In this document: piece by piece, positions 39,906 to 62,113 of the stretch
Numbering within the stretch: the first letter of the stretch is position 1
How the letters are laid out: each line of letters opens with the position of its first letter
Origin: Denitrovibrio sp.
GTDB taxonomy: Bacteria; Chrysiogenota; Deferribacteres; Deferribacterales; Geovibrionaceae
Direction of reading: 5' to 3'
DNA length: 64,000 nt
Assembly (NCBI GenBank): GCA_002869145.1
Contig: PKTM01000020.1
Span: 62,001-126,000, forward strand
Made by a program: the position numbers and the translations under genes
Notes under the pieces: model-generated
The model's database searches: none
What the model saw: the letters and a program-made list of their open reading frames with translations, nothing else
What the model was told of the DNA's origin: nothing

Positions 39906-40045
39906 TACAACCTCTTCACTGATTATAAACGTGCTTAGAGACAATGTGAAGAATAACGTAGCTTTTCAGTAAATATAAAAATGATTACTCTGGAAATGCT
40001 CCCAAAAACTGCTAAAATAAAGATATTATTATTTAGGTGTAGTAA

Positions 40046-41376: not shown

Positions 41377-41829
41377 ATGGGCAAAACATTTGATGTGGCC
41401 GATAACCTTGTAAAGACGGCCCGTACTTTGAAATATGATGATTTTGACGCGAAAGATAAAGTGATTAAGTATGCGGGGAAGCTGATATCTGAAGAGTTCG
41501 GACCTTCCAGTCTATATATGCAAAAACTTGGACTCATAGTGTTTTCACCGAAAGATGGCAATGTACTCGGAAACATGGGGGCAGATGAAGAACATATCAA
41601 AAGATCAGTTTTTAACTCAGGGCTGGAAAGGCTTATTAGTCTTTTAGAAGATGTTCGGGACAGTATTGGCGGAGAGACTGCTTCCGGTGACAGGATTGTT
41701 GTTGTTAAGGCGAAAGACAAAATAAGCGCAGCACGCATAACCTCGCACATAAAGGCCAAAGGTTACGAAACTATCACTATAAAAGATACAGACGACTGGA
41801 AAGAGAAGCTGGACAAACTGCTTTCCTAA
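41377..41829 (+). CDS. Hypothetical cytosolic protein
   Basis: I do not recognise a family. It is 150 residues, alpha/beta, with no membrane segment or signal peptide, and begins MGKTFDVADNLVKTART. It lies 17 bases after the diguanylate cyclase on the same strand, so it is probably its operon partner. Its end overlaps the convergent permease gene by 4 bases. Confidence 0.7.
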   Translation: MGKTFDVADNLVKTARTLKYDDFDAKDKVIKYAGKLISEEFGPSSLYMQKLGLIVFSPKDGNVLGNMGADEEHIKRSVFNSGLERLISLLEDVRDSIGGETASGDRIVVVKAKDKISAARITSHIKAKGYETITIKDTDDWKEKLDKLLS

Positions 41830-42698
41830 GGTTTGTTCATTATAATCCTTAAATTAGGAACCACTATCCCCAGTATCAGCAGAACCACACCATATATCTG
41901 GAATGAGACGATCTCTTCACCTATCAAAACAGCCGCCAGAAGAAGGGTTGCTGCTGGCTCAAATGAGCTGAAAAGTGAAACGTATGTCGCACCGATAAGA
42001 TCCATCGCCAAATAAAGAAAACCGATTGCAATAGCAGTGGGGATTACGCCAAGCATTATAGCAACAGAGAGCTGTGCGCTATTTAACTCTGCCAGTCCAA
42101 GCCCTTGGTTTATAACAGCAAAACCTGCACCTGTGAAAGCCAGCATGTATAAGGCTACCTTTGCCGGACGTTCATTTTTTAAAACCACCTGACTCATAGT
42201 AAGGCACGTTCCAAAAATAATAGGTGCGGCAAGTCATAAAAGTATTCCGGTTAGGTTGAGCTGACGGAGGAAGGCATCGTAAAAAACCAGACAGCACCCT
42301 GCCATTATAAGCACTACCGAGACTAAAGATGCCATACGGAACTTTATCTTTAGAAAAATTGTGGATTCTGCAAGAACTATCAGAGGATAAAGGTATAAAA
42401 GCAGCGAAGCTGTTGATGCGGGTATGTACTTAAGCGCAGTGAAAAAAGAGAGACTTTGAAGTAGGTAAAGCCCAAGCCCGAGTCCTGCACATTTAAGCAG
42501 AAGCTTTGGGGTGGGTATCAGCGCTTTCCTACGGAAAAAAAGGAAGAAAACTGCCAGTGTAGCCGCACCAAAACAGAACCTATAGGTAAGCATCTGGATG
42601 GCTGTGAGCCCCTGCTCGTAACCCATCTTGCCAAGCACCGGAAGCGTTGCGTATGCGCATGCAGAAATTATTGCGAGTATAATACCTTTGACCATCAA
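41826..42698 (-). pseudogene. DMT-superfamily (EamA) permease, interrupted by an in-frame TGA
   Basis: Ten-helix drug/metabolite transporter built of two EamA repeats. Repeat one runs from 42698 to TGA 42236-42234; the frame continues directly through LAAPIIFGTCLTMSQVVLKNERPAKV and repeat two to 41826. The stop falls inside the first helix of the second repeat (GILL-stop-LAAPII), where the family commonly has a small residue such as Gly or Ala, so GGA to TGA is a plausible origin. Reconstructed length is ~290 residues, normal for the family. Neither half would be a complete transporter. Confidence 0.85.
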
Positions 42699-43090: not shown

Positions 43091-44674
43091 CTATCTTTGT
43101 TTGATAAAGTCCACAGATATCCACCCTTTGTCCACTTCCAGCCATCCGGAATGAACCTTGTTCCCACAGACAATGTCGCCCTGCTCATAGCTTCCTGTTA
43201 TGCTGCTTTGTATTGTAGGCTCTGTCCTGATATTAAGAGATGTGGCTAATACCGTGTAGCAGTCAGGTTTTATCTGGTCTATTTTTTCTTTTTTAGGATT
43301 TGTCTGTAATTGTTCTGAATAATTTACTGGTTCAACGACAATAAGGCTGTCATATACCTTATTCCAGTCAATCACATCATCCTTAAAAATTTCTTTTGTT
43401 TCATCAGTGTTATCCATTACCTGATTGTATATAACACCTAGGGCTTCAACTATTCTGAATTTCACATATATAAGGTCGTATTGCGCTCTGATAAGATCTT
43501 TGATGGACCTGATATAATCATTTTCTGCTACAGATATGTCCATAAGGTCAGATATTCCAAGCTGAAACTCTTTATGATATGTATCAAGAGCAATTTTCTC
43601 TATCTGATATGTTTCTTTCAGAAGTTCAATCTTATTGTTAAAATTGTGATAAAGGCTCCACGCCAGTTTCAAACGCAGCTCAGTATCTTTCTTAGCCTTA
43701 TCGAGAAGCTGATATTTTTCCAGAAGAGCACCATATCTTTTCATCTTTATATATTTACTTTCGTTGCCTTTAAATATGTTGTAACTCATCTCCAGCATCA
43801 GTGAATATTCATCTCTATAGTCTGTGTAGGTATAGTCATCTCTGTAGCCGTATGAGCCCTTTACGCTAAGTGTGGGAAGTTTGCTGCTGTTCACATCTCT
43901 TTTCATTTCAGAACGGGTGATTTCAATATTCTCTTTTGCAACCTTAATGCTCGGGTGGTGTTCTTCAATGATTTTAAGCGCTTCCTGAAGTGAATAAGGG
44001 ATTTCAAAATTCAGTTCAGGTCTGACAAGACTCTGCGGGTCTATGTCTTTGCCTGTGTAATATGAAAGGTTAGCAGCTGCCTGACTCAGGTCGATACTAT
44101 GCACTGAGTGATTCAGATTTGATGTCGTGTACATGGATTCTGCTTTTTTCAGTTCAGATAATTTGCCGAGACCGATGTCAAATTTAATCTTAATTTTTTT
44201 GAGAAAGCTCTTATGCCTTGCAAGTACTTCATCTGAGACCTTTACTAGCTCTCTTTGTTTAAGAACTTCAAGATAAGCTTTTACTGCTTCAAGTGTGAAT
44301 GTGTTGATATTCTCTTTTACTTTTATATCTGCAGAGACTTTTCTGAATGATTCTGTCTCTTTATTATATTTTCTTTTATTACCGTCAAAGATGTTATAGC
44401 TGATACCTATCTCAGCTTCAGTCGTGGTGCCGTCTTTATCCGTACCGTTATTAAAATCGTGCCCTTCAAAGCCAGCGGCACCTCTTGCATACACTGTGGG
44501 GTAATAGTCAGATTCTGCTATACCTATGTCGCCTTTGATGCTTTTACTGGTTTGGCGCAGATGCTGTATGTTAGGGTGGTTTTCTACTGCGTCTTTAATA
44601 TACTCCTTCATTGTGAGAGCATTTGAGTTTACACAGATAAAAAGTGTTGCAGTGATATATATAATTTTATTCAT
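43091..44674 (-). CDS. TolC-family outer membrane protein with C-terminal SH3 domain
   Basis: Outer-membrane channel of a type I secretion system. A signal peptide (MNKIIYITATLFICVNSNA) is followed by two OEP repeats (residues ~20-440) with long coiled coils and the NHPNIQHLRQ and HHPSIKVAKENI repeat starts. After a linker, residues ~470-527 form a bacterial SH3-like domain (VLATSLNIRTEPTIQSSITG ... GWISVDFIKQR), probably a peptidoglycan-binding module. It overlaps the siaC-like gene by 8 bases and is third in the operon behind the acidic repeat protein. The partner ABC exporter and adaptor are encoded divergently at 49.3 kb. Confidence 0.88.
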   Translation of the reverse strand: MNKIIYITATLFICVNSNALTMKEYIKDAVENHPNIQHLRQTSKSIKGDIGIAESDYYPTVYARGAAGFEGHDFNNGTDKDGTTTEAEIGISYNIFDGNKRKYNKETESFRKVSADIKVKENINTFTLEAVKAYLEVLKQRELVKVSDEVLARHKSFLKKIKIKFDIGLGKLSELKKAESMYTTSNLNHSVHSIDLSQAAANLSYYTGKDIDPQSLVRPELNFEIPYSLQEALKIIEEHHPSIKVAKENIEITRSEMKRDVNSSKLPTLSVKGSYGYRDDYTYTDYRDEYSLMLEMSYNIFKGNESKYIKMKRYGALLEKYQLLDKAKKDTELRLKLAWSLYHNFNNKIELLKETYQIEKIALDTYHKEFQLGISDLMDISVAENDYIRSIKDLIRAQYDLIYVKFRIVEALGVIYNQVMDNTDETKEIFKDDVIDWNKVYDSLIVVEPVNYSEQLQTNPKKEKIDQIKPDCYTVLATSLNIRTEPTIQSSITGSYEQGDIVCGNKVHSGWLEVDKGWISVDFIKQR

Positions 44675-45050
44675 TGTATGATTTTAGCTGTATATCCAGC
44701 TCTTCAAAGTCTTCCTGAAATTCTTCGCCCATCTCCTCAGCAGATTCATTGTCTTTGTCATATTGCCACACTACAGTGAATGCTGTCCCATTCTCTTTTG
44801 CATCAGACAATATATCTAGAATATCAAAAAGAGTTTTTGACGTGCTGCTATTATAGTAAGGGATATCAAATGTCACAACAGTTCCCTCTTTAGGTGTATC
44901 AAAATAATCTTCTAGCCAATCTATTACGTCCTTGTAAAACTCATTGCAGTTTTCCGGGTAAGATTTGCCTTTGATACTAAGTTTTCCGGCATCAGGGTCA
45001 AAATCAATTAATGGAGTATATTTGGTTGCCTCTTTGTATAATCTACTCAC
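44667..45050 (-). CDS. siaC: SiaC-family regulatory phosphoprotein
   Basis: A 127-residue protein of the DUF1987/SiaC family. In Pseudomonas SiaC is phosphorylated by SiaB, dephosphorylated by the PP2C phosphatase SiaA, and in its free form activates the cyclase SiaD. Seen here are DFDPDAGKLSIKGKSYPEN and IPYYNSSTSKTLFDIL; Ser68 in NSST aligns with the phosphorylated Thr of the family (from memory of P. aeruginosa SiaC). The GTG start at 45050 has AAGGAGG 5 bases upstream. It sits between the acidic protein gene and tolC, and the matching SiaA/SiaB domains lie at 53.9-56.3 kb. Confidence 0.88.
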   Translation of the reverse strand: MSRLYKEATKYTPLIDFDPDAGKLSIKGKSYPENCNEFYKDVIDWLEDYFDTPKEGTVVTFDIPYYNSSTSKTLFDILDILSDAKENGTAFTVVWQYDKDNESAEEMGEEFQEDFEELDIQLKSYNE

Positions 45051-45117
45051 ATTCGCCTCCTTATATATGCTTAAATTGTAATTATCAGTATGTTTAATGT
45101 CCAGCTAAATAGAGAGC

Positions 45118-48100
45118 TTACATAGAATCGTCAACATCGGTATTATCAAAAAAGTCTCCTGCGTCGAAGCTGTCTTCGCTGAATTCTTCAAAGTCGATAT
45201 CATCGTCAGATTTGCTGTCGTCTTTTTCGCTGTTTTTATCCTCTTTTTTGCCCTTGCCTTTACCAGAGCTTTCAGAGCTGTCATCGTCTGGCAGTATACT
45301 TTCAGAATCTTCATCGATGATATCAGCGAGATCAATTTCAGTTTCTTCGTCAGACTGCTCTCCTGTCTGCTCTTTTTGTACCGGTGTCTCTATTTCATCA
45401 AAGTTAATCTCATCCTCATCATTGAGTGACATCTCATCGTCTTCAGAGTTCTTAGCAGCTGCAGGATTATCTTCATCGATACCGTCATCGTCATTGCCAT
45501 GACCTTTGTTATTGTCTGAGGAGTCATCTTCTTCATCAAGATCATTTTTAGACTGACCAGGGTTACTTTCGTCAACTCCGTCATCGTCATTCCCGTGTCC
45601 GTTATCTTCATGTTCTTGACCAGATTTACCCTGATTTGACTTTTCTGAATTATCATCGTCAGAGGTGTCGTCATCAGTTGTGGCAGTATCTTCTTCTGAA
45701 CCAATATTGTCAAAATCGATTTCAAACTCTTCTTCATCCAGAGAAAGTGCTTCAGATTCATCATTTAATGAACCTTCATCGTCTTCATAACCTTGCCTAT
45801 CAGGTTTTGAAGCTCCCGGATTATTTTCATCAACTCCGTCTTCATTGTTTCCGTGGCCCATGTTTTCCTTCAAATCATTATCGCCACTTTTTGACTGACC
45901 AGGATTATCTTCATCGATGCCGTCTTCATCATTCCCATGGCCTCTGTCTTCATGTTCCTGACCGGATTTACCCTTATCTGACTTTTCAGAATTGTTTTCG
46001 TCAGGAGCGTCATCTTCTGATGGGGTATCGTCTTCAGACGGAGTATCATCTTCAGACGGAGTGTCATCGTCTTCGTCAGGAGTATCATCCTCGTCAGGAG
46101 TGTCGTCTTCTGTCGGAGTGTCATCGTCTTCGTCAGGAGTTTCGTCCTCTGCCGGAGTATCGTCCTCAGCAGGTGTGTCATCCTCAGTCGGAGTATCGTC
46201 CTCGTCAGGGGTGTCGTCTTCTGTCGGAGTATCGTCTTCGTCAGGAGTATCATCTTCGTCAGGAGTATCATCTTCGTCAGGGGTGTCGTCTTCAGACGGA
46301 GTATCGTCTTCGTCAGGAGTGTCATCTTCTGTCGGAGTATCGTCTTCAGACGGAGTGTCATCGTCTTCGTCTGGAGTATCGTCTTCAGACGGAGTGTCAT
46401 CGTCTTCGTCAGGAGTATCATCTTCGTCCGGTGTCTCATCTTCAGACGGAGTATCATCCTCGTCAGGAGTGTCGTCTTCTGTCGGAGTATCGTCTTCAGA
46501 CGGAGTGTTGTCCTCGTCAGGTGTATCTTCTTCAGACGGAGTATCGTCTTCGTCAGGAGTGTCATCATCAGACGGAGTATCATCTTCGTCAGGAGTCTCA
46601 TCATCTGACGGAGTATCATCTTCGTCAGGAGTATCGTCTTCAGACGGAGTATCATCTTCGTCAGGAGCGTCATCTTCTGATGGTGTATCATCTTCTGTCG
46701 GGGTATCATCGTCTGCCGGAGTGTCATCTTCGTCAGGAGTGTCATCTTCTGTCGGAGTATCCTCTTCGTCAGGGGTGTCGTCTTCAGACGGAGTATCGTC
46801 TTCGTCAGGAGTATCGTCTTCAGACGGAGTGTCATCGTCTTCGTCAGACGGAGTATCGTCTTCAGACGGAGTATCATCGTCTTCGTCAGGTGTCTCATCT
46901 TCAGACGGAGTATCATCTTCGTCAGGTGTCTCATCGTCAGACGGAGTATCGTCTTCGTCAGGAGTGTCATCATCTGACGGAGTATCATCCTCAGCAGGTG
47001 CATCATCTTCGTCAATAGTATCGTCTTCATCAGGAGTGTTGTCTTCGTCAGGGGTGTCATCTTCTGTCGGAGTGTCGTCTTCAGACGGAGTGTCATCGTC
47101 TTCGTCAGTGGTGTCATCTTCTGTCGGAGTTTCGTCCTCATCAGGTGCATCATCTTCGTCAGGAGTGTCATCATCTGACGGAGTATCATCTTCGTCAGGA
47201 GTATCGTCTTCAGACGGAGTATCATCTTCAGTCGGAGTATCGTCCTCGTCAGGTGTATCATCGTCCTCTGCCGGTGTATCATCTTCGTCAGGTGTCTCAT
47301 CGTCAGACGGAGTGTCATCGTCTTCGTCAGGAGTATCATCTTCGTCAGGTGTCTCATCTTCGTCAGGAGTGTCATCTTCGTCAGGAGTGTCATCGTCTTC
47401 GTCAGGGGTGTCGTCTTCAGACGGAGTGTCATCGTCTTCGTCAGGAGTATCGTCTTCAGACGGAGTATCATCTTCGTCAGGAGTGTCGTCTTCAGACGGA
47501 GTATCGTCTTCGTCTGGAGTAACGTCTTCAGCCGGAGTGTCATCTTCGTCAGGAGTGTCATCATCTGACGGAGTATCGTCTTCAGACGGAGTGTCATCGT
47601 CTTCGTCAGGTGTATCATCGTCCTCTGCCGGAGTATCGTCTTCAGACGGAGTGTCATCGTCTTCGTCAGGTGTATCATCTTCGTCAGGAGTGTCGTCTTC
47701 AGACGGAGTGTTGTCTTCTGCAGGTGTATCGTCTTCAGACGGAGTATCGTCCTCGTCAGGGGTGTCGTCTTCTGTCGGAGTGTCGTCCTCAGCCGGAGTA
47801 TCGTCCTCAGCCGGAGTATCGTCCTCAGCAGGTGCATCATCTTCGTCAGGTGTCTCGTCTTCGTCTGGAGTATCATTCTCGTCAGGTGTCTCATCTTCAG
47901 ACGGAGTATCATCGTCTTCGTCAGGTGTCTCATCTTCAGACGGAGTATCATCTTCGTCAGGTGTCTCATCGTCAGACAGAGTATCGTCTTCGTCAGGAGT
48001 GTCATCTTCTGTCGGAGTGTCGTCCTCAGCCGGAGTGTCATCGTCTTCTTCAGGAGTTTCGTCCTCTGCCGGAGTATCGTCCTCAGCAGGTGTGTCATCC

Positions 48101-49122
48101 TCGTCAGGAGTGTCGTCTTCTGTCGGAGTATCGTCTTCAGACGGAGTGTTGTCCTCGTCAGGAGTGTCATCATCAGACGGTGTATCATCCTCAGCCGGTG
48201 TATCATCCTCAGCAGGTGTGTCATCCTCAGCAGGCGTCTCATCCTCAGCCGGAGTTTCGTCATCTGAAGGTGTGTCATCTTCTGCAGGTGTATCATCGTC
48301 CTCTGACGGAGTATCATCGTCTTCAGGTGTATCGTCTTCAGACGGAGTGTCATCGTCTTCGTCAGGAGTATCATCTTCAGACGGAGTGTCATCGTCTTCG
48401 TCAGGGGTGTCATCTTCTGATGGTGTATCATCTTCGTCAGGAGTGTCATCATCTGACGGTGCATCATCTTCTTCAGGTGTCTCATCGTCTGACGGAGTAT
48501 CGTCCTCAGCAGGTGTATCATCTTCGTCAGGAGTGTCGTCTTCATCAGGAGTGTCATCTTCGTTAGGAGTATCGTCTTCTGCTTGGATATCTGCAGTTTC
48601 ATCAGTATCATTAATGTCTTCAGATTGCTGCGGCTGTTCTGTCTGGGGTGGAACTGATTCTGCTTGTGCATCTGTTACATCTGAGACAGATCCTCCACTG
48701 GTACGTGACTGGACATCAGAGTTTGTGTCCAATTCTTCTGTTTCTTCGTCAGTAATGCCTGTGAAAAGCTGCTCTGTGTTTACATCTGCTTCAGAAACAT
48801 TTTGTCCTGCTCTGCCAATGCCAGAGTCTTCATCTATGATTTCATTTATCGATGCTGCCTCTCCAGAATCAAAAGCAATTTCTGTGATGTCAAAACCTTC
48901 ATTTTCAAGAACGGAATCATCTATCTCAACCTGTCTGTTAGGGCCTATTTCAAAAATTCTGCCATCAGAACGCTCAAAAACTATTGTGCTGAAATCACCC
49001 GTTTTGATAATTCCTCCGTTTTCAGTGATAACATCTCTTTCTCGCAAAATTTTTTCTTTTGCATCTGATTCTATGCTTACAACGCCTGAAATGCTTTGTA
49101 CAGTTAATGTTTCTCTGGACAT
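45118..49122 (-). CDS. Giant acidic repeat protein with FecR/retention-module-like N-terminus, likely T1SS substrate
   Basis: A 1334-residue protein with almost no basic residues in its middle. Residues 1-75 (VQSISGVVSIESDAKEKIL ... GGIIKTGDFSTIVFERSDG) resemble the beta-rich retention module of LapA-type type I adhesins or a FecR-like fold. Residues 183-1042 are a run of hexapeptides DDTPxE (x is D, S, A or T, some with an extra D), about 130-140 copies. Then come three to four GHGNDxDGxDExNPGxSK-type units, known from large RTX-like surface proteins, and an acidic C-terminus (EFSEDSFDAGDFF) that could be the secretion signal. There are no Ig-like or RTX nonapeptide repeats. It is flanked by all type I secretion parts. 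It might be a calcium-rich or cation-binding surface stalk. Confidence 0.85.
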   Translation of the reverse strand: MSRETLTVQSISGVVSIESDAKEKILRERDVITENGGIIKTGDFSTIVFERSDGRIFEIGPNRQVEIDDSVLENEGFDITEIAFDSGEAASINEIIDEDSGIGRAGQNVSEADVNTEQLFTGITDEETEELDTNSDVQSRTSGGSVSDVTDAQAESVPPQTEQPQQSEDINDTDETADIQAEDDTPNEDDTPDEDDTPDEDDTPAEDDTPSDDETPEEDDAPSDDDTPDEDDTPSEDDTPDEDDDTPSEDDTPDEDDDTPSEDDTPEDDDTPSEDDDTPAEDDTPSDDETPAEDETPAEDDTPAEDDTPAEDDTPSDDDTPDEDNTPSEDDTPTEDDTPDEDDTPAEDDTPAEDETPEEDDDTPAEDDTPTEDDTPDEDDTLSDDETPDEDDTPSEDETPDEDDDTPSEDETPDENDTPDEDETPDEDDAPAEDDTPAEDDTPAEDDTPTEDDTPDEDDTPSEDDTPAEDNTPSEDDTPDEDDTPDEDDDTPSEDDTPAEDDDTPDEDDDTPSEDDTPSDDDTPDEDDTPAEDVTPDEDDTPSEDDTPDEDDTPSEDDTPDEDDDTPSEDDTPDEDDDTPDEDDTPDEDETPDEDDTPDEDDDTPSDDETPDEDDTPAEDDDTPDEDDTPTEDDTPSEDDTPDEDDTPSDDDTPDEDDAPDEDETPTEDDTTDEDDDTPSEDDTPTEDDTPDEDNTPDEDDTIDEDDAPAEDDTPSDDDTPDEDDTPSDDETPDEDDTPSEDETPDEDDDTPSEDDTPSDEDDDTPSEDDTPDEDDTPSEDDTPDEEDTPTEDDTPDEDDTPADDDTPTEDDTPSEDDAPDEDDTPSEDDTPDEDDTPSDDETPDEDDTPSDDDTPDEDDTPSEEDTPDEDNTPSEDDTPTEDDTPDEDDTPSEDETPDEDDTPDEDDDTPSEDDTPDEDDDTPSEDDTPTEDDTPDEDDTPSEDDTPDEDDTPDEDDTPDEDDTPTEDDTPDEDDTPTEDDTPAEDDTPAEDETPDEDDDTPTEDDTPDEDDTPDEDDDTPSEDDTPSEDDTPSEDDAPDENNSEKSDKGKSGQEHEDRGHGNDEDGIDEDNPGQSKSGDNDLKENMGHGNNEDGVDENNPGASKPDRQGYEDDEGSLNDESEALSLDEEEFEIDFDNIGSEEDTATTDDDTSDDDNSEKSNQGKSGQEHEDNGHGNDDDGVDESNPGQSKNDLDEEDDSSDNNKGHGNDDDGIDEDNPAAAKNSEDDEMSLNDEDEINFDEIETPVQKEQTGEQSDEETEIDLADIIDEDSESILPDDDSSESSGKGKGKKEDKNSEKDDSKSDDDIDFEEFSEDSFDAGDFFDNTDVDDSM
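45997..48576 (-). repeat. 18-bp/21-bp coding tandem repeat tract (DDTPxE units)
   Basis: About 2.6 kb of imperfect 18-bp units, with 21-bp variants when an extra GAC/GAT codon is added. On the + strand the units read GGAGTATCGTCTTCGTCA-like. Higher-order blocks of several units recur, a sign of past slippage or unequal exchange. All codon choices keep the reading frame. The tract is also open in antisense frames because of the repeat. Confidence 0.92.
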
Positions 49123-49258
49123 TCAATGCTCCGAAATATCTATTCTTAAATGATACTATAGTCATAACTGAAAAAAATAATATTATACTTGGGTATAATT
49201 TATAAGAATAAAGATTAAAATAATGATAATATTAAGAATATAAAAGTAAGGGAAAAAT

Positions 49259-51418
49259 ATGCCAAACGATAATTATTCAGATCCTCTGCTTCAATGCCTG
49301 GTTATTTTTACGAAGATTCAGGGGAGACCATTTTCAGCCGAAGCTCTCACCGCAGGACTGCCTGTAGAGGAGGGGAAATCCTCACCTACCTTATTTTCTT
49401 TGAAAAGATCTCAGGGGCTTTTTTCACGAGCAGCAGCAAAAGCAGGTTTTAAAACCAAGATCAGCAAGACTGGCTTGGATGACATTACGTCACTGACACT
49501 TCCTTGTATTCTGCTATTAAAAAGCAAAGACAGCGAAAGTATAAATGCGTGCATTCTGCAAAAATTTGATGAAACCAGAGAGAATGCATACATAATACTT
49601 CCTGAGATGGGAGAGGTCATAAACAAAGTTCCTGTTCAGGATTTGGCTCAGGAATATTTCGGGCTGGCATTTTTCCTTAAGCGAGAGATAGTTTATGACG
49701 ACAAAGACCTTGACCTGCTTCGTTTCGAAGGTAAGCACTGGTTCTGGGGTACTATGAAGATGGTGACGGGAACATACAGAAACGTATTTCTTGCCTCGCT
49801 TCTTATAAATATTTTTGTAATAGCAACCCCTCTTTATACTATGAATGTTTATGACAGGGTAGTACCGAACAGCGCAACAGATACACTCTGGATATTATCT
49901 ATCGGAGTACTGGCTATTTATGCCATAGACCTGACTCTGAAATTTATACGTTCTTATCTACTGGAGGTGGCTGGGAAAAAGAGCGATATCATCATGTCAT
50001 CTATTATTTTTGAAAAGGTTATGGATTTGAAAATGTCTGCAATGCCGAAGTCTATCGGCTCATTTGCAAATGTTCTTAAAGAATTTGAGAGTATCAGAAA
50101 TTTTATGACCTCATCAACCATCACAATACTTATAGACATGCCTTTTGTGATCATATTTCTTGTTGTAATTTATAATATCTCCGGTGCTGCTGTGCTTATA
50201 CCTCTTGTTACTATGTTTGCGATAGTTATCTACACCACTACTCTTAGGAGCAGAATCCAATCAAGCATCAGAAACACTTATAAAGCAAACTCAAGCAAAA
50301 ACGGAGTACTTATTGAGAGCTTGTCATCTATAGAAACACTTAAAACCATGGGTGCAACCGGTTATGCCCAGTGGAAATGGGAAGAGGCAACGGGCAATAT
50401 CGCAGAAAAAAGTATCAAAACTAAATTTCTGACAGCTTCTATCTCTTCTGTAACCAGTTTTTTTGTACAACTGAATACAGTTTCAATCATTATATTCGGC
50501 GTCTATATGATCAAATCCAACAGCCTGACACTAGGCGGTTTGATCGCTACTGTGATTATCTCTACCAGAGCGATAGCTCCTATGGGGCAGATAGCAAGCC
50601 TCATAGCACAGTTTCATCATACAAAGACAGCATACACTGCAATAGATAAGATTATGGATCTGCCTGCTGAGCACCCTAAGGGTAAAAAGTTTGTACAGAG
50701 AACAGAGTTCAAAGGCCATATAGAACTCCGTAATGTAAATTTTGCATATCCGGAAACAGATAAGTTTGCACTCTCTAACGTTTCAGCAAATATAAGCCCG
50801 GGTGAGCATGTCGGTATCATTGGCAAGATAGGTTCTGGTAAATCAACAATACAGAAACTGCTACTCGGTCTGCATTACGCAAATGAAGGATCAGTGTACA
50901 TAGATGGGATTGATATTAAACAGCTGGATCCTGCTGAGCTGAGAAAAAATATCGCATATGTTCCTCAGGATATTACGCTTTTTTCAGGAAATGTGCGTGA
51001 AAACCTTATATACAGAGCTCCACATGCCACAGATGAAGACATACTGCGTGCTGCAGATATAAGCGGTGTATCTTCTTTTGTTAACAAACATCCTATGGGC
51101 TTTGACATGCCTGTTGGTGAGCGTGGCTCTATGGTTTCTGGTGGTCAGAGACAGAGTATAGCCTTAGCACGTGCTATACTGCTGGAAAGCCCGATAGTGA
51201 TACTGGACGAACCGACAAACGCTATGGACAACACAACAGAAGCACAGGTTATAAGGCGTCTGAAAGAGCATTTGGCAGGGAAAACCATAATACTTGTGAC
51301 ACATAAAACCAGTGTGCTTAATCTGGTGGACAGAATAATTGTCATGGAAGACGGTATGGTTGCTATGGACGGCCGGAAAGAAGATGTGGTTTCCCGATTG
51401 AAAGCGAAGAAGAGTTAA
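49259..51418 (+). CDS. Type I secretion ABC exporter, LapB-like
   Basis: A 719-residue fused permease-ATPase. Residues 1-135 form a C39-like domain in which the peptidase Cys is absent, so it binds but does not cut the substrate. Six membrane helices follow (residues ~160-440), then an ABC domain with Walker A GKIGSGKST, signature VSGGQRQSIALARA, Walker B IVILDEPTNAMD and the VTHK switch His. It is the first gene of the operon divergent from the acidic protein (136 bp shared upstream region) and exports that protein by inference from position. A ribosome site, AAGGGAAA, precedes the start. Confidence 0.93.
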   Translation: MPNDNYSDPLLQCLVIFTKIQGRPFSAEALTAGLPVEEGKSSPTLFSLKRSQGLFSRAAAKAGFKTKISKTGLDDITSLTLPCILLLKSKDSESINACILQKFDETRENAYIILPEMGEVINKVPVQDLAQEYFGLAFFLKREIVYDDKDLDLLRFEGKHWFWGTMKMVTGTYRNVFLASLLINIFVIATPLYTMNVYDRVVPNSATDTLWILSIGVLAIYAIDLTLKFIRSYLLEVAGKKSDIIMSSIIFEKVMDLKMSAMPKSIGSFANVLKEFESIRNFMTSSTITILIDMPFVIIFLVVIYNISGAAVLIPLVTMFAIVIYTTTLRSRIQSSIRNTYKANSSKNGVLIESLSSIETLKTMGATGYAQWKWEEATGNIAEKSIKTKFLTASISSVTSFFVQLNTVSIIIFGVYMIKSNSLTLGGLIATVIISTRAIAPMGQIASLIAQFHHTKTAYTAIDKIMDLPAEHPKGKKFVQRTEFKGHIELRNVNFAYPETDKFALSNVSANISPGEHVGIIGKIGSGKSTIQKLLLGLHYANEGSVYIDGIDIKQLDPAELRKNIAYVPQDITLFSGNVRENLIYRAPHATDEDILRAADISGVSSFVNKHPMGFDMPVGERGSMVSGGQRQSIALARAILLESPIVILDEPTNAMDNTTEAQVIRRLKEHLAGKTIILVTHKTSVLNLVDRIIVMEDGMVAMDGRKEDVVSRLKAKKS

Positions 51419-51426
51419 GGAGGGTA

Positions 51427-53292
51427 ATGGTGGAAGATAATAAAAATAACCCTCAGACCCAACTGAGCTATGAAGAACTTAAAAAACAGCATGAGAAACT
51501 CCTGACAAAATATGACAGAATGGAAAAACGTGTTGATAAAGTTATAAAGCAGGGTGACAAACAGCAGAAGTATGTACAAGATTTGAATGACAAGCTCGAA
51601 GGATACATAAGCACAATAGACGAGCATATTATAACGATTTCCGTTGATAAATCCGGTGTTGTGAAGTCTGTCAGCACTGCTTTTAAAAATGCTTTCGGAT
51701 ATAAAAGTACTGAAATCGAAGGGAAAGAGGCTACTTTTCTGGCTGATAGTGAAAATTATGACACTTTAAAAGCATCATTTGATGAGGTTTTAAATACGGG
51801 GATCCCCTTTAAAGTAGAGGTCAAACTCCAGAGGAAAAATGAGAGCAAAGCATGGGTGGATCTATACGTGAAGCCTGTATACGACTTTGAGGAGATATCC
51901 GGCCTGACACTGATATGTGAAGACATTACAGATAAAAAAGAGGTCGAACAGCTTAAAATATCAAGATTGGCTGCTAAGAAATATGATTCAGGATTACTCA
52001 GTTTCATGAGCAGCATAAGCGCTGCCACTCTTCAGACAGTACCCAGAAAGATAAATGCTGTTCTTTGGCTATTTATCTTTGCAGTTGGATTTTTTCTCAC
52101 ATGGTCGTTTTTCAGCGAGATAGATATAGTTGTTAAAGGAGACGGCAGAGTCAGTTCTCTAAAATCACTTCAAACTGTTCAGAGTCCTAAGGCTGGAATA
52201 TTGACTAAGGTTCATGTGCAAGAGAGTAACATTGTGTACAAGGGTGAAATCCTTGCTAATATTGAGTCACCTGAGCAGGTAAATAACCTTAACAGTCTTG
52301 AGCTAAGGCTGATAGCTAATAGGGCAAAGATTCTGAGATTGGAAGCTGAGTCAGCATTTTCAGATATGGATGAGTCTCTTTTAGAAACATTTCCTGACAA
52401 AGAAATTTTCAAACGTGAATACAGTCTCTTCCTGTCTAACAAGGATCAATTAATAAAGTCTGTTGAGAGGCTTAAGGAAGAGCTTAGCCAGAGGGAATCT
52501 GACCTAAAAGAAGCAAGAGCCAAGCTCGAGTTTTATAACAGAAACAATGAGCTTCTTATCAAAGAGCTTTCAATTAAAAAACCCCTGTTTGAGCAAAAGA
52601 TTATTTCGGAAGTTGAATTTTTGAAAATACTTCGTCAGCAGAATGAACTGAAACTGGATATCCTGAATACTAACGAAGAGATAGAGAGGCTTGAATCTAG
52701 GATCAGTGAGATAGAGCTTCGTATATCAGAGCAGAGAATAAATTATCAAAATACCGCAAAAAAAGATCTAAGCAAGGTATTTGCTGAAAACACCGAGCTG
52801 AAGGTTCAGGTTAGGGATATAGAATCTGATATAGATAGAGGTGTAATAAAATCACCTGTTAACGGATATATAAACAGAATAAACGTTAAAACCGATGGTG
52901 CTGTTGTTGCTAAAGGTGAGGGGATTTTTGAAATAGTACCTAGTGATGACAAAGTCGTAGCAGAGCTTAGAATAAAACCTTCTGACATAGTGGGCATATA
53001 CGTAGGGCAGGATCTTCAGCTCAAATTTGATGCATATGACTACACTATTTTCGGCGGTATAGAGGGCAGAATACTGAGGGTGAGTGAAGATACTCTCAGA
53101 GATGAAAAAGGAGATTATTACTACGTTGTTGTTGCAGAGGCGAAGAAAAATTATTTTGAAAAAGACGGAAGTAAGTTCTTTATCAAGCCGGGCATGAATG
53201 CATCTGCAAATATCATAAAAGGCAAGAGACGTATAATTAATTATATATTGAAGCCTATTATGAAAACAATCCAGTCACCGATGGCAGACTGA
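51427..53292 (+). CDS. HlyD-family membrane fusion protein with cytoplasmic coiled coil and PAS domain
   Basis: Periplasmic adaptor of the type I exporter with an unusual N-terminal extension. Residues ~10-58 form a coiled coil, ~61-175 a PAS domain (DEHIITISVDKSGVVKSVST ... SGLTLICEDITDKKEVEQ), 211-230 the single membrane helix and 235-600 the normal adaptor: biotinyl-lipoyl-like segments, a long coiled-coil hairpin, and the C-terminal beta-barrel part. Typical HlyD proteins have only a short cytosolic tail (~60 residues). The extension lets the exporter sense a ligand or redox state, or bind a signalling partner. It lies 8 bases after the ABC gene. Confidence 0.9.
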   Translation: MVEDNKNNPQTQLSYEELKKQHEKLLTKYDRMEKRVDKVIKQGDKQQKYVQDLNDKLEGYISTIDEHIITISVDKSGVVKSVSTAFKNAFGYKSTEIEGKEATFLADSENYDTLKASFDEVLNTGIPFKVEVKLQRKNESKAWVDLYVKPVYDFEEISGLTLICEDITDKKEVEQLKISRLAAKKYDSGLLSFMSSISAATLQTVPRKINAVLWLFIFAVGFFLTWSFFSEIDIVVKGDGRVSSLKSLQTVQSPKAGILTKVHVQESNIVYKGEILANIESPEQVNNLNSLELRLIANRAKILRLEAESAFSDMDESLLETFPDKEIFKREYSLFLSNKDQLIKSVERLKEELSQRESDLKEARAKLEFYNRNNELLIKELSIKKPLFEQKIISEVEFLKILRQQNELKLDILNTNEEIERLESRISEIELRISEQRINYQNTAKKDLSKVFAENTELKVQVRDIESDIDRGVIKSPVNGYINRINVKTDGAVVAKGEGIFEIVPSDDKVVAELRIKPSDIVGIYVGQDLQLKFDAYDYTIFGGIEGRILRVSEDTLRDEKGDYYYVVVAEAKKNYFEKDGSKFFIKPGMNASANIIKGKRRIINYILKPIMKTIQSPMAD

Positions 53293-53293
53293 C

Positions 53294-53890
53294 ATGATAG
53301 TTGTTTATTCTTCAAACCCAGATATAGGAAAAGATATTAGACAATCCCTCTCTAGTCATAATATAAAATCGTATAGTTCTTACGCTATTGCTGAGCGTTT
53401 TATGCTTTCAGCCAGTCTTCTGATATATGCACTGGACGAAGCGGAGGTTCAGGCAGAAAATATCTTATCTGACATGGATACTGTCCCGATTTTATTTATG
53501 AGGGATATCCCTGACGACGAAGAGGGCGTTCAGCTTTTAAGAAACGGCGCAAGAGGGTATGGTAATTCTGTCATGTCCACGCCTGTTCTCAGACAGGCTG
53601 TTGATATTATCAATAGCGGGAACATCTGGGTTTATCCGAGGCTTATGAATAGGCTTATCTCTTTCATCCCTGTTCAGAGAAAAACCATAGGGATACAAGG
53701 CTTAAGCAGCAGAGAGACCGAGATATCTTTGCTTGTATCTGAAGGTCTGAGTAACCAGGAGGTTGCTGATAAACTGGGAGTGGCAGAAATAACAGTCAAA
53801 AAGATATTGAGCGGAGTTTACTCTAAGCTGAAGCTGAAAGACAGGCTGGGGTTGGCTCTTTATGTTAATAAGCAGAGCGGCGGCGGTTAA
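53294..53890 (+). CDS. LuxR-family regulator with degenerate receiver domain
   Basis: A 198-residue protein with an N-terminal receiver-like domain (residues 1-115) that lacks the acidic pair and clear phospho-acceptor Asp of true receivers. It keeps the GARGYGNSVMSTPVLRQAVDIINSGNIWVYP segment, which I associate with regulators in type I adhesin loci. The C-terminal HTH (LSSRETEISLLVSEGLSNQEVADKLGV) is a standard LuxR DNA-binding domain. It is one base from the adaptor gene and overlaps the next gene by one base. It probably controls the divergent promoter region 49123-49258 (inference). Confidence 0.88.
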   Translation: MIVVYSSNPDIGKDIRQSLSSHNIKSYSSYAIAERFMLSASLLIYALDEAEVQAENILSDMDTVPILFMRDIPDDEEGVQLLRNGARGYGNSVMSTPVLRQAVDIINSGNIWVYPRLMNRLISFIPVQRKTIGIQGLSSRETEISLLVSEGLSNQEVADKLGVAEITVKKILSGVYSKLKLKDRLGLALYVNKQSGGG

Positions 53891-56292
53891 TGAAAAATAT
53901 TCTGATAGTAGATGACAGCAAGCTTGTGCTGAAAGCTCTTCTGGCAAGAACTCTGAGTGGGAAGAAACTCAGACCGGTTCTTGCTGCTAACTTTCAGCAG
54001 GCTCAGGCAGCTGTGGAATCTGATAACGATTTTTTTGTGGCTATTGCTGATCTGATACTTCCAGATTGCGGAGAAACAGAGTTAGTAGAATATCTTCTGT
54101 CTAAAAACATTCCCACGATTGTTCTAAGCGGTTCTATAGATAATAAGCTACGCTCTATGCTGCTTGCGAGACCGATTGTTGATTATATTGTAAAATCAGG
54201 AGCTGAGGATTTGCGTTCGGCGATTAGCCTTGCAGAGCTATTGCTGTTTAATAAAAAAATAAAAGCTTTGGTGTTATCAGAAAATAAAACCTTTGCTAAT
54301 GAGATGGGACATTTTTTATCTAATCTCTTAATAGATACAATTTTCTGCCAGTCTCCTGATGAAATACCCGAGATACTTACAAATGACACCAAGATAAAGA
54401 TATTGATAGTGCCTAACAGTGTAACAGGAACATCAGGACCGGATGTTGTAAAGAAGCTTCGTGACAGCTATCTGGAGACTCTTGTGGTGTTCGGTGTCAC
54501 TACGAGTGATGATTCTGAAACCAGATATAAGTTTCTCAAAAGCGGTGCGGACGACTGCCTGATAAGGCCTTTTTACAAAGAAGAATTCAATGCGAGAATA
54601 ATGAACCTTATCAGAATTCTCTCGCAGAAAGAGCAGATAGAAAAACAGCTGAAAATTGTCGATAAAAATATCATTACCTCCAGCACAGACGAAAAAGGAA
54701 TTATCAAAACAGCCAGTGAGGCGTTCAGCAGTGTCTCAGGATTTGCTAAAGAAGAGCTGATTGGAAACAATCATAACATTGTGAGACACCCTGACAACTC
54801 GAAAGAGTTTTATAAAAACCTCTGGGATACCATTTCTGCCGGCAAGCCTTGGCAGGGCGAGTTTAAAAATAAGAAGAAAGATGGCGGTTTTTACTGGGTT
54901 AGAGCCAATATTGAACCAGATTTTGACTATGACGGCACCATCTCTGGGTATACAGCAATCAGACAGGATATTACGGATAAAATATTAGTTGAAGAGAAGT
55001 CTAAAGAACTTGAAGAAGCACAACAGAAAATTATGGATAGTATCAGATTTTCCTCACTGATACAGGATTCTCTACTGCCTGATGAATCAATACTTGATGA
55101 GTTTTTTAAGGAGAGTTTAATCATTTGGGAACCTAAAGATATAGTGGGCGGAGACACTTATTATTTTTATAAAGATGAAGACTGTTGTTATGTTATGGTT
55201 CTTGACTGTACCGGCCACGGTGTTCCTGGAGCATTTATGACTATGCTAGTAACATCTATTTTGAATAACCTGTTTGTTTCAACTTATCGTCCTGCTCCAT
55301 CATCTATTTTATCTGCTTTGAACAAAAATATAAAAGAGACCCTCAAACAATATTCTAGATCTGCAAAGAGTGATGCAGGGCTTGATGGCGGAGTGCTGAG
55401 ATATGACCGATCAGATAATACTATAGTTTACTCAGGTGCAAAATGAGAGCTGTTCTGTTTTGCTGATGGAGAACTTAATATAGTGAAAGGGGACAGGCAT
55501 TCTGTTGGTTATATAAAATCTGATCCGGAATATAAATTTAGTTAGAAAAAAATAGCTATTGATAAAGAGATGTTAATATATCTTTCCACTGACGGCTTTA
55601 TAGACCAGAACGGTGGAGAGAAAGGTTTTCCAATGGGAAAGAAAAAGTTTACTTCACTGCTTAAAAAAAACCTTGGTTATTCAATGGATGTGCAGGGGCA
55701 GAATTTGCTAGAGGCTCTTGATGACCACCAGAGGGGAAATGAAAGGAATGACGACGTGACATTGGTTGGATTCAAAGTAGTCCCTCAGAAGGTGGATACT
55801 AGTATTATTATCAGCCATAAAGGAGAACTGACTCAGGAGCTGATTAAAGAATATACTGATAAGCTTGAAAACGAGCTGGAAAAAATTGTATGGGCAAAAA
55901 AGAAGACGAGCAGGGTGCTAATAACTTTTGTCGAGATGATTCAGAATGTTTTTAAGTATTCTCTATCTCAAAACAGCTCTGGCAGCTATAAAGATAATGT
56001 AACAGTAAAAATAAACAAGGCTGAGGAGCAGATAGTTGTAGAGACTTTGAATCTAACTGACAGCTTCTCATCAGGTAAAATACTGGAAGATGTTATGAGT
56101 ATAAACATGCTGGATAAAGACGAAATAAAGAAACTTTACCGTGATATGCGTAAAAGCGGCGACGGTTCACATGACATAGGCGCAGGAATAGGTTTTATTG
56201 AAATAGCTAAGCAGACCGGGGGCAATATTTCTGCCGGTGTCGAAAGGTGTGACAAAAATCAGTGTGTTCTGCATATCACCGCCAAGGTTTAG
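53890..56292 (+). pseudogene. REC-REC-PAS-PP2C(SpoIIE)-SiaB fusion, interrupted by two in-frame stops
   Basis: Reconstructed protein of ~800 residues. It has receiver 1 (IVDDSK and Asp in ADLILPD), receiver 2 (degenerate, Asn in VPNSV), an Aer-like PAS (NHNIVRHPDNSKEFYKNLW), a PP2C/SpoIIE phosphatase (VGGDTYYF, LDCTGHGVPGAFMTM) and a SiaB-type kinase domain (from DTSIIISHKGELTQEL). TGA at 55444-55446 and TAG at 55543-55545 cut the phosphatase domain; both sides and the 32 codons between are in one frame and read as normal phosphatase sequence (ELFCFADGELN, DRHSVGY). The N-terminal part keeps the first metal-binding motifs; the remainder from ATG 55570 keeps the kinase. This would be SiaA and SiaB activities in one polypeptide acting on SiaC. 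Confidence 0.85.
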
Positions 56293-56420
56293 CGTGTTTA
56301 GCTGCTCACGTATTCAAATATATAGAAAATAGAATAGTCAAAGATAATCTACCCATATCATTATGTTCTTTTTATGAAGTTTTTGTTTTCAATGTTCTAC
56401 TTTTTGATTAAAATATTTTT

Positions 56421-56999
56421 ATGGATATAGACAAACTTTCATACGATGAATTAAAAGAACTGTATATAAAGCAATCTTAAAGAATGGATAAAATTCTTAA
56501 ACAAAGCGATAAACAGGCTAAAGAACTTTTATTATTAAATGAAGAACTGGAAAAGTTTGCTAATACTGATCCTATGACAGGATTATATAATAGAAGATAT
56601 TTTTATACTTTTGTTAAAAAAATTATCTCTCAATGTGATCGTAGTAATACAACATTCTCCTTAGCCCTGATAGATATCGATAAGTTTAAAAATATCAATG
56701 ATACATACGGACATGAAGCTGGAGATGAAATTATTAAAGATCTTTCATCAGTGCTTACTGAGTCGATCAGAGCTACCGATATAGTTGTTAGATTTGGCGG
56801 AGAAGAGTTTTTAGTTTTGCTGCATAATACCGGGGCAAATTCTGCATTCAGTGTGATTGAGCAAATTCGGGCACTTGTGAGTGAAAACTCAAAAAACTCA
56901 GCTATCGCATATACTTTCAGCTCAGGAATCTCAGAATATATAAAGTCTGAAGATATTAAAAATACAATCAAAAGGGCAGATGAAGCTTTGTATAATTAG
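56421..56999 (+). pseudogene. Small GGDEF diguanylate cyclase (SiaD-like), interrupted near its N-terminus
   Basis: From ATG 56421 the frame reads 19 codons (MDIDKLSYDELKELYIKQS), meets TAA 56478-56480 and goes on through RMDKILKQSDKQAKEL to a complete GGDEF domain (TDPMTGLYNRRYF, FGGEEF, with the RxxD inhibitory site RATD). The ATG at 56484 could restore a 171-residue cyclase, so function may survive. The first 19 residues resemble the start of the adaptor gene product (SYEELKKQHEKLL ... VIKQGDKQQ), a coiled-coil lead typical of small cyclases. It lies 128 bases after the PP2C-SiaB gene and is the likely c-di-GMP output of the Sia module. Confidence 0.82.
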
Positions 57000-57581: not shown

Positions 57582-58811
57582 TTAATCATATTCAGAAAAT
57601 TTCTTCATTTCAATCAATTTTTTGTACTGAGTGGCAGTAATCTGGAAGTATTTGTCCTGTGGAATGTATATATATGGTACATCTTCCACATTTCTGAACT
57701 CAAAAAGAGATAAAATTATTCTATTTACGCCCCTGTGACCAATAATGATGATATTTCCTTCGCCTCCGCTTAGGAACAACGCTTTTTTAAGGCCAAATTC
57801 AACACGTTTTTTTAATGTTCGGTAACTCTCACCATTAGGGTAGGTGAAGTTGTACTTATCTTTGAGCCGGTTTTCGTATAGATCCGGAAAATTTAATCGG
57901 AGTTCATCGTATGTTATAGAGTCATGGTCGCCTGTGTTTATCTCATCAAACTCTTCAAACGGAAAGATTTCGATATTCGGAATCTCTTTTTTTATTTCTT
58001 CGGCAATGGCCAGAGTCCTTTTTTTGGTGCTGGTGAAAACATAGTGTATATCAGAATCTTTGAAATGTTTTGCGAGGTCTTTGGCTTGCTGCATGCCACG
58101 CTTAGTTAGTTCTGAATCCCCTCCAATACGGTTTTCAAGATTAAAGTAGGTTTGTCCGTGGCGAACCAAATATAGATTATGAATCCAGTCTGAAACTAAA
58201 ATATCTCTGATCAGGTGATAATAAGGTATCCCTTCCTCTTTTTCTCTGATGACCTTATTGTTGAGCGAATCAATTACAATATAGTTGGGTTCATTGGTGA
58301 GCTGATCATACCGGCTCCTGTAGTATTCAATTCGCTTTAAAAAGTTCTGATACGCTTCTTCTTTTGGCAAATGACTGAATTCCAGTAATTTAGTTTTTGT
58401 ATCGATGCAAATACTTAGAAAATCATCCTCGTCGTTAACACACTAAATAAAAAGTATGTTGTAATCTGACAGCTCCTCAATAATTGACCTTCTTCTGTTT
58501 CTGCTGACATTGGCTGCGTCAATAATCGCAATGTCACCTTTGCCATTCAAGTATTCTTTGGCACTGAGGACGTTTATTGAGGCGATCTCTTCCCTTATTC
58601 TGGCAGAAACAATATTATCGGGATCGTAAAACTCATATGAGGATGTATTTTCTTTTATATATTTTCTTCTCAAATCTCCATTGTTAAAAACTTCTACATT
58701 AAGATTTTCTTTGGAAAGGTTTTCAAGGATTTTTCCTGCATGAGTCGATTTACCTCTTGCTGGAAGCCCCATCATAACTATACAGAGTTTTTTGCGTTCC
58801 TTGGCTTTCAT
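57582..58811 (-). pseudogene. 6-phosphofructo-2-kinase/fructose-2,6-bisphosphatase homologue, interrupted by TAG
   Basis: The N-terminal kinase part has MMGLPARGKSTHAGKI (P-loop) and is cut after NILFI by TAG 58445-58443. The frame continues at once with CVNDEDDFLSI, KTKLLEFSHLP and then the phosphatase half with the RHG motif (VRHGQTYFNLENRIGGDSELT) and a second catalytic His in GHRGVNR. Related eukaryotic enzymes have Glu in the FxE-x-V-x-D stretch at the stop, so GAG to TAG is likely. Reconstructed length is ~409 residues. Fructose 2,6-bisphosphate control is mostly eukaryotic; bacterial homologues are uncommon. Two partial proteins are possible: a truncated kinase, and a phosphatase from TTG 58370. 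Confidence 0.88.
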
Positions 58812-59302: not shown

Positions 59303-62113
59303 ATGCTAGGGAACATAAGAATGAAGCCGAAATTGATTGGGACGTCGCTTCTGATAAGTCTGATTCCGATAATTATAATCGGGCTTATGGCGGCAAAACT
59401 GTCGAAAGATGCTCTTTTAGAGACATCTTACAACCAGCTTGAAAGTGTGCGTGAGATAAAGAAAGCTGAGATTGATGAGATGTTTCACAGCTTTCACTCA
59501 GATATTTCTACTCTGTCAGCTAATGTGAATGCAGTTATTGATAATGGTTTTAAAAGTATGAACGCTATCAATACAAACAAAGCTGTAGCAATACGGGAAC
59601 TTGCACAACAGTGGCTCACAGATGTCAAAAATCAACAGACTCTCGACCTTACAGTTGATGGGCTGGAACATTTCGAAAACTTCATCAGAACCGGCAGGAA
59701 ATCAGCGGAATATATAAAATATGCTGCAATCATCGATGATTACATCAAAAACACAGGCTATTATGACTATTTTGTGATCAGTAAAAATGGACATATTGTT
59801 CATACGCAGGCTAAAGAGGCTGATTACAACACAAATATACTTAACGGAAAATATAAAGACTCCGGTTTGGCGCAGGCAACAAGACGTGCTCTGAACGGAG
59901 AGCCGAACATGCAGGACTTCGAGCCATATGCTCCAAGTAACGGCGATGCAGCGGCTTTTGTAGCAGCTCCCATTATAGACAACGGACGAATATAAGGTGT
60001 GGTAGCTATTCAGGTAGCCACTGATAAGATTGTAAGGGTTACAGGGGACAGAACCGGTCTTGGCGAAACGGGAGAATCCTACATAATTGGCGAACACGAA
60101 GGTGTTATAGCTTTCAGAAGCAATATGGTGACCATGGGCAACGGCAATTATGTTGTGGGTTATGACATGACAGACAAGGCCACAGAATATATAAACGAAG
60201 TTCTTGCGGGTAAAAAAGGCCATGAGATTTTTACTGATTCAACAGGTAATCTTGTTCTGGTTTCATATTTACCGCTTGAGCTGGATGGACTGAACTGGGG
60301 GATGATAACCAAGCGCAACCTCGAAGATGTAATTGTAACAAAAGAGGAAGGCGACGAGATGGATCTTTTTCAGCATTTTATTCAAGAGAACGACTATTAC
60401 GATCTTTTCCTCATCCACCCAAAGGGTAAAATATTTTATACAGCGGCTCGTGAGTCTGATTATGGGACAAATATAGTAAACGGAAAGTTCGCTGATTCAG
60501 GGCTTGGTAAGCTTACCCGAAGAGTGCTTGCAAAAAAAGAATACAGTGTGCAGGATTTTGAGCCTTATGAGCCCAGCAATTTTGACCCGGCGGCTTTTCT
60601 TGCGCTTCCTATAATGCACTTAGGCGAGGTGGAGTACATAGTGGCACTGCAGATATCTCTCGCCAAAATAAATAAAGTTATGCAGCAAAGAGAAGGTATG
60701 GGCAGAACCGGTGAGACCTATCTGATAGGTTCAGACAAAAGGATGCGCTCAGACTCATTTCTTGACCCGCAGGGACATTCTGTCGTAGCTTCTTTCAAAG
60801 GTACAGTAGAGAATAATGGTGTTGATACTGAAGCATCCAGAGAGCTTCTGGCTGGAAAAACAGGCAGCAAGATCATAGAAGATTACAACGGCAACGACGT
60901 TCTTTCCTCTTACACATCATTAAAAATTGACTCTTTCACTTGGGGTTTGATAGCAGAGATAGACAAGGCAGAAGTTTATGAACCAATAAATGAACTGGTG
61001 AAGTTCATCATGCTTATTGGAATAGTTATTGCGGTTATTGTTGCCATTATTGCATACCTGCTTGCTGTTGGTATAGCTAACCCTATAATTCTTGGTGTGA
61101 GGTTCGCTCAGGAGATATCCAGAGGAGATCTTGATGCACATATAGATGTTAACCAGAAAGATGAGATAGGTATGCTGGCGAATTCTCTTAAAGAGATGGT
61201 GGCAAACCTTAGAAATATCGTCAATGACGTAAAGCATGCATCAGACAATGTTGCCACAGGCTCAAACGAACTTAGCAGTGCAGCTCAGGACATGTCGCAG
61301 GGCGCAACAGAGCAGGCGGCTTCAGCGGAAGAGGCATCATCATCCATGGAAGAGATGAACTCCAATATTAACCAAAATGCTGACAATGCTCTCCAGACAG
61401 AAAAGATAGCCCTGAAAGTTTCTGAGGATGCAAAATCCGGCGGCGAGGCAGTTCAGAAGACAGTCGCTGCCATGAGAGATATTGCAGACAAGATATCTAT
61501 TATAGAAGAGATAGCCAGACAGACAAATCTACTTGCTCTTAACGCCGCCATTGAGGCTGCCAGAGCTGGTGAACACGGTAAGGGATTTGCTGTGGTTGCA
61601 TCAGAGGTTCGCAAGCTCGCAGAAAGATCACAGGAATCAGCAGCAGAGATAAGCGAACTGTCATCAAACAGCGTGGAGGTTGCAGAGAACGCAGGCAAAC
61701 TTCTTGATCAGATACTGCCGGATATCCAAAAGACAGCAGAGCTGGTGCAGGAAATATCGGCGGGAAGCAATGAAATGCGCACAGGTGCTGACCAGATTAA
61801 CACTGCTATACAGCAGCTTGACCAGGTTATTCAGCGTAATGCAGGTGTTTCAGAAGAGATGGCTGCAACTTCAGAAGAGCTGACAGGTCAGGCAAATGGA
61901 CTCCAGCAGGCCGTATCCTTCTTTAAAATGTCAGATAGACAGAGATCTTTTAGTGATCAAAAACCAACTAAAAACAAGAAAGCTGAGGTAAAAGAGCAGA
62001 AGGCAATCCCTGCGCAAAAAAAAGAGAATAAAGCCCAGAAGAGCATAATGCTTGATATGGATAGTGAGAAAAATGGCAAAGACAAAGCCGACGATGATTT
62101 CGAAAGTTTTTAG
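59303..62113 (+). pseudogene. Methyl-accepting chemotaxis protein with duplicated sensor modules, interrupted by TAA
   Basis: Reconstructed ~936 residues: membrane helix, a long periplasmic part, second helix (~residues 565-590), HAMP and a complete signalling domain ([28 protein letters not shown]). The periplasmic part holds two copies of one module, YYDYFVISKNGHIVHT ... QDFEPYAPSN and [16 protein letters not shown] ... [13 protein letters not shown] 59993-59995 ends the first part after [17 protein letters not shown] continues in frame. In the second module the aligned residue is Glu ([10 protein letters not shown]), so GAA to TAA is the simplest origin. The remainder from GTG 59999 would lack its first helix. 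It is followed by cheW 9 bases later. Confidence 0.9.

Follow-up and report, generated by a model that had tools for sequence, protein, structure and literature searches.

The window, by which we mean the whole 64,000-nucleotide stretch of DNA analysed here, contains a type I secretion locus whose adaptor gene encodes a PAS-HlyD fusion. The genes and features of the locus are as follows:

43091-44674 (-): TolC-type outer membrane protein (PF02321, 9e-52)
44667-45050 (-): SiaC family phosphoprotein (PF09345, 7e-42)
45118-49122 (-): giant acidic DDTP-repeat protein, presumed type I secretion system (T1SS) cargo from its co-occurrence in seven loci
48766-48777 (-): TEQL motif of the cargo, residues 116-119, in the place of the LapG site of ordinary cargoes
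48877-49122 (-): LapA-like retention module of the cargo, residues 1-82 (NF033682 below cut-off; hhalign)
49259-51418 (+): type I secretion ABC transporter of the LssB type (TIGR03375, 890.5 bits), upstream of the fusion gene
51427-53292 (+): PAS-HlyD fusion adaptor of 621 aa, the main finding (profiles, predicted fold, transmembrane helix)
53294-53890 (+): LuxR/GerE-type regulator, one base past the adaptor stop
53890-56292 (+): receiver-receiver-PAS-PP2C (SiaA-like) and SiaB-like DUF6272 kinase in one frame, with in-frame TGA and TAG in the assembly
56484-56999 (+): GGDEF diguanylate cyclase in a SiaD-like position (PF00990, 5.2e-42)

Both type I secretion partners of the adaptor, the ABC exporter (TIGR03375) and TolC (PF02321), are present, and a LuxR/GerE gene comes after the adaptor at each of the seven fused loci found, as well as in the ordinary operons examined. 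A conserved lipoprotein-like gene of ~180 aa without Pfam match adjoins the ABC gene at three fused loci (L140:11501-12031, L141:2973-3527, L142:3814-4368); it is absent from the window locus and was rejected as a constant part of the system. The preliminary description of the adaptor gene as intact proved correct, as 51427-53292 (+) is a single ORF with an ATG start, a good Shine-Dalgarno sequence (AAGGAGG) ahead of it and zero internal stops. Its 621-aa product is composed of the following parts:

51469-51606 (+): N-terminal helix or possible coiled coil, residues 15-60, member-specific and of low confidence
51607-51936 (+): PAS domain, residues 61-170 (PAS_9, 2.9e-13; predicted fold)
51937-52047 (+): PAS output helix and linker with the invariant KKYD...L.FM.S.S.A.L motif, residues 171-207
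52051-52113 (+): transmembrane helix, about residues 209-229
52114-53289 (+): periplasmic HlyD adaptor with lipoyl/barrel-sandwich, alpha-hairpin and barrel (TIGR01843, 308.6 bits)

The architecture proposed earlier, with a PAS domain, a transmembrane helix and an HlyD adaptor in one chain, is borne out by profile, AlphaFold2 and Foldseek matches. Residues 68-169 match Pfam PAS_9 (E = 2.9e-13; 50.4 bits, above the cut-off of 27), residues 68-175 match the NCBIfam sensory_box profile (E = 3.1e-16), and residues 207-617 match TIGR01843 type_I_hlyD over profile positions 2-417 of 422, i.e., as a full adaptor, with 308.6 bits vs. a curated cut-off of 208.65 bits. The adaptor part also matches the structures 5nen, 8dck and 7sgr. 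In the AlphaFold2 model, obtained from a five-row alignment, residues 69-166 are predicted to adopt the canonical PAS order of two strands, four helices and three strands with pLDDT mostly of 75-87; an output helix follows, and the remainder is modelled as an HlyD adaptor. Foldseek searches with the predicted PAS returned PAS/LOV structures (FixL, 2.9e-8; YtvA, 4.4e-8), and the predicted fold together with the PAS_9 match supports a PAS fold for residues 61-170. The transmembrane helix at ~209-229 leaves ~208 cytosolic residues, in agreement with the ~210 noted before. In the ordinary adaptors of related loci, the stretch ahead of the position that aligns with residue 191 of the window protein is never longer than 68 residues, and a cytosolic part of this size is therefore really unusual. 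The N-terminal coiled coil described at first is predicted, but with low confidence (pLDDT of 40-60 for the helix at residues 15-64), and it is peculiar to the window member, relatives carrying only ~20-35 residues ahead of the PAS.

In-frame stops in other genes of the window would be compatible with a chance or decaying fusion, or with two separately made proteins. Five frames run on past an internal stop (TGA, TAG or TAA), at 53890-56292, 57582-58811, 59303-62113, 36807-39944 and 41826-42698. Of the SpoIIE profile, one half is matched by one side of the PP2C gene at 53890-56292 and the other half by the other side, and at least this gene is therefore really interrupted. Stop-codon reassignment was rejected for the interrupted genes, the stops being mixed (TGA, TAA, TAG), and a crude count of in-frame split frames (32 vs. 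27 per 200 kb in a same-genus genome) gave no clear genome-wide excess. In the adaptor gene, however, the frame is open through the PAS-HlyD junction in 7/7 fusions, and internal starts close to the junction are limited to TTG181, which has no Shine-Dalgarno sequence, and ATG194, which has AGGA 12 nt away and sits downstream of the start point of ordinary adaptors. With such poor starts and an open frame, two separate products are not supported. Since the seven members form one clade with high conservation and have no good internal start, the chance, decaying or two-product reading is already contradicted, and we give it almost no credence.

Seven PAS-HlyD fusions of the same layout were found in all, namely in the window, in genome G049, in one Desulfuromonadaceae MAG and in four Campylobacterales, and the seven genomes span two or three phyla. 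Within the window's phylum the fusion occurs in 2/51 genomes (the window's own and G049, which belongs to a remote family), and about a dozen other genomes carry an ordinary adaptor, which in those examined is part of an ABC-HlyD-LuxR operon. The Desulfuromonadaceae fusion was found by scanning genome contigs with two short patterns only, and no other turned up in samples at class (277) and phylum (297) level; its host is uncertain because the contig is only 5.1 kb long. A Campylobacterota sample gave the fusion in 2/249, an order-level sample around one of these cases in 4/349 (those two included), and at a strict threshold there was none among 369 sampled Gammaproteobacteria genomes. From such low counts we conclude that the PAS-HlyD fusion is rare and scattered. 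Protein searches with the PAS-HlyD junction for plasmid or phage carriage gave zero matches. A gene with a tyrosine-recombinase-like end (L156:7764-8933) lies shortly upstream of the adaptor fusion of G1046, hinting at a mobile island.

For the phylogeny we used the HlyD part alone, in 55 rows, with the PAS left out. The seven fusions form one clade on this tree with a support of 100/98. Placement of the window protein among the ordinary adaptors of its own phylum was rejected (p-AU 0.0007), with some risk in the tree placement owing to its long end branch (1.9). An independent fusion of the window member is unsupported, as it groups with the other six on the PAS-free tree. Because all seven form one clade there, the fusion appears to have arisen in one event; it then appears to have spread horizontally. 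When the six closer members were compared (window protein left out), identity between the G049 and Desulfuromonadaceae proteins and those of Campylobacterales was 61% for the PAS, 68% for the linker and 42% for the periplasmic part. Since the PAS and linker are better conserved across phyla than the periplasmic adaptor, the cytosolic part is under strong constraint and more constrained than the periplasmic one. The window protein is divergent, with 29% PAS and 35% periplasmic identity to the other six. Judged from these alignments and the tree, we are dealing with a conserved, once-evolved fusion and not with a chance join.

No cofactor signature was found in the PAS, either in alignments of the seven fusions or in the comparison with YtvA. 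A LOV photoreceptor was rejected: the position of the flavin-adduct cysteine is Ala102 in the window (YtvA 2pr5 GKNCRFLQ vs. GKEATFLA), and Cys is present there in 0/7 fusions. As to the histidine of heme-type PAS domains (FixL/DosP), no His is conserved across all seven fusions. The only histidine of the window PAS is H67, ahead of the first strand; H81, C87 and H134 are common to the other six fusions and missing from the window member. The predicted PAS may bind heme or another ligand, and it is plausible that this domain senses a cue. PAS domains can serve as dimerisers only. A purely structural PAS, which would bind no ligand and carry no signal but join the cytosolic tails in dimers or anchor the adaptor to the C39-like domain of the ABC transporter, would fit the lack of cofactor residues common to all seven and the docking of the HlyD tail itself on the HlyB C39-like domain (PMC11026475), and a partner interface would equally explain the high PAS conservation. 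Yet a tail of a few tens of residues is enough for ordinary adaptors, so that docking does not require a 110-residue PAS, and the canonical PAS-DIT-output helix layout is kept; we hold a merely structural role to be rather unlikely.

In each of the seven fused loci a gene for a large protein lies alongside the adaptor, and the first ~80 residues of this protein are LapA-retention-module-like. The window cargo has 1334 residues, mostly D/E-T-P repeats (D 435, E 216, T 172, P 148) that recall the DDxP repeats of PMC7730722, although the window unit is much shorter. Its match to NF033682 (E = 5.1e-4, 20.3 bits) is under the cut-off of 50 and a weak assignment if taken alone; hhalign comparison of the fused-system cargo N-termini with nine ordinary cargo N-termini gave 96.4% with E = 1.1e-9. 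TEQL is invariant in 7/7 fused-system cargoes, at residues 111-118 and 49-55 residues past the module. The cargo N-termini from ordinary-adaptor genomes, in contrast, have (T/P)AAG after the module in 10/10 cases and TEQL in 0/10, with a spacing of 49-50 residues past the module in seven of the nine measured. The [T/A/P]AAG LapG site after the module is absent from the fused-system cargoes, all seven having TEQL there instead. Among the 38 genomes searched with the cargo profile A6, there was one strong match per fused genome (7/7, E of 1e-42 or better), and the 31 controls gave only partial matches (best 6.6e-9); A6 was built from the seven cargoes and this gap in E-values is partly built in, the motif comparison being free of that. 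The adhesin is probably held at the surface.

The one-to-one pairing of the fused adaptor with a TEQL cargo in seven genomes, with both the PAS and the cargo N-terminus conserved, could also be read as cargo recognition, the PAS binding the secretion signal or the retention-module/TEQL region before export. Type I cargo, however, exits C-terminus first, whereas TEQL lies near the N-terminus, and the pairing may reflect only the joint inheritance of one gene cluster. We consider such recognition improbable.

LapG and DvhG cleave at (T/A/P)AAG (PMC6890996, PMC13090378). No LapG (PF06035) gene was found near the fused loci, of which the Desulfuromonadaceae contig covers only 5.1 kb, and G049 has none at all. 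LapG lies alongside the ordinary system in both the window's genome and G475; in the remaining fused genomes, none was found within 70 kb of the fused locus on the same contig. In principle, the fused-system cargo could still be a target of a LapG from another part of the genome, though this cargo is without the LapG site. A LapD-type c-di-GMP receptor was not seen in the ORF lists around the fused loci. In the window genome's other, LapG-linked system the LapB-type ABC gene is split in frame (L143:6191-8335; 484 + 201 aa), and this ordinary system may, in view of the split, be out of use.

With the LapA/LapB/LapC/LapE-LapD-LapG system of Pseudomonas fluorescens and V. cholerae FrhA/CraA (PMC6890996) the window locus shares the LssB-type ABC exporter, the HlyD/LapC-type adaptor, TolC and a giant cargo whose N-terminus resembles the retention module in profile comparison. 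It differs in the cytosolic PAS of the adaptor, in having no adjoining LapG gene and no LapD seen, and in TEQL standing in the fused-system cargoes at the position of (T/P)AAG. Dvh of Desulfovibrio vulgaris (PMC13090378) is likewise a Lap-like adhesin system with a PAS in its regulation, but there the PAS is part of the c-di-GMP receptor DvhD (dCache-PAS-HD-GYP), and Dvh has retained both the [T/A/P]AAG site and a protease resembling LapG (DvhG). The HlyB-HlyD hemolysin exporter (PDB 7sgr, 8dck) has a homologous adaptor and an ABC partner of the same kind; unlike here, the HlyD tail is short and without PAS, and the cargo is released, not retained. The flanks of the window locus resemble the SiaABCD biofilm module, which controls aggregation in P. 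aeruginosa (PMC7647112): across 43091-56999, SiaC (PF09345), a SiaA-like PP2C, a DUF6272 kinase and GGDEF surround the secretion genes. By neighbourhood only, this module may be functionally linked to the type I adhesin locus; none was seen adjoining the other fused loci.

On these grounds we favour, as somewhat probable, a LapG-independent T1SS variant of the Lap kind, once-evolved and horizontally spread, with a cytosolic PAS fused to the adaptor and the periplasmic release switch LapG missing. This reading is built on what was computed, i.e., the fusion, its predicted fold, single origin and conservation, the cargo motif swap and the absence of LapG near the locus; we infer the hexameric placement (by analogy with HlyBD), the direction of signalling, the cue and surface retention. 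HlyB-HlyD consists of three HlyB dimers and six HlyD, and an acidic cluster of HlyD binds basic residues of the HlyB C39-like domain (PMC11026475, PMC9751043). In a comparable arrangement, with six adaptor subunits around the ABC transporters, the PAS domains would pair up or close into a ring at the cytosolic side, near the C39-like and nucleotide-binding domains of the transporter. Located just before the linker, near the adaptor-transporter contact, the PAS would be well placed for setting assembly or cargo engagement. A cytosolic cue or partner would change the PAS, the change would reach the transmembrane helix by way of the output helix and KKYD linker, and complex assembly, cargo engagement or cargo hold would be set in this manner. 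As the cargo is without the LapG site, its retention module would stay plugged in the channel, so that control of adhesion would fall to export or hold and not to LapG proteolysis. More tentatively, retention-module adhesins may have a second mode of control, free of LapG, in which the adaptor would act as a cytosolic sensor that gates or locks the channel on a PAS signal, with TEQL as an anchoring or release element replacing the LapG site.

No earlier report of a PAS-HlyD fusion was found in the open literature searched, which covered few subscription papers. New here is the replacement of (T/P)AAG by TEQL after the retention module in all seven neighbouring cargoes. Three features of the system had escaped the preliminary description: the TEQL-bearing cargo with its retention module, the absence of LapG and the SiaABCD-type module on the flanks. 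More telling than the fusion itself is the coherent Lap-type variant with its own cargo motif and no LapG switch nearby. Type I secretion is usually viewed as unregulated once its genes are expressed, retained adhesins being regulated afterwards by LapG proteolysis. The fused machine and the matching cargo change in seven genomes suggest that a known biofilm-adhesin system exists here in a separate version. A sensor domain in the adaptor would turn the channel itself into a signal receiver, and a cargo in which a different invariant motif has taken the place of the cleavage site suggests that hold and release follow another rule.
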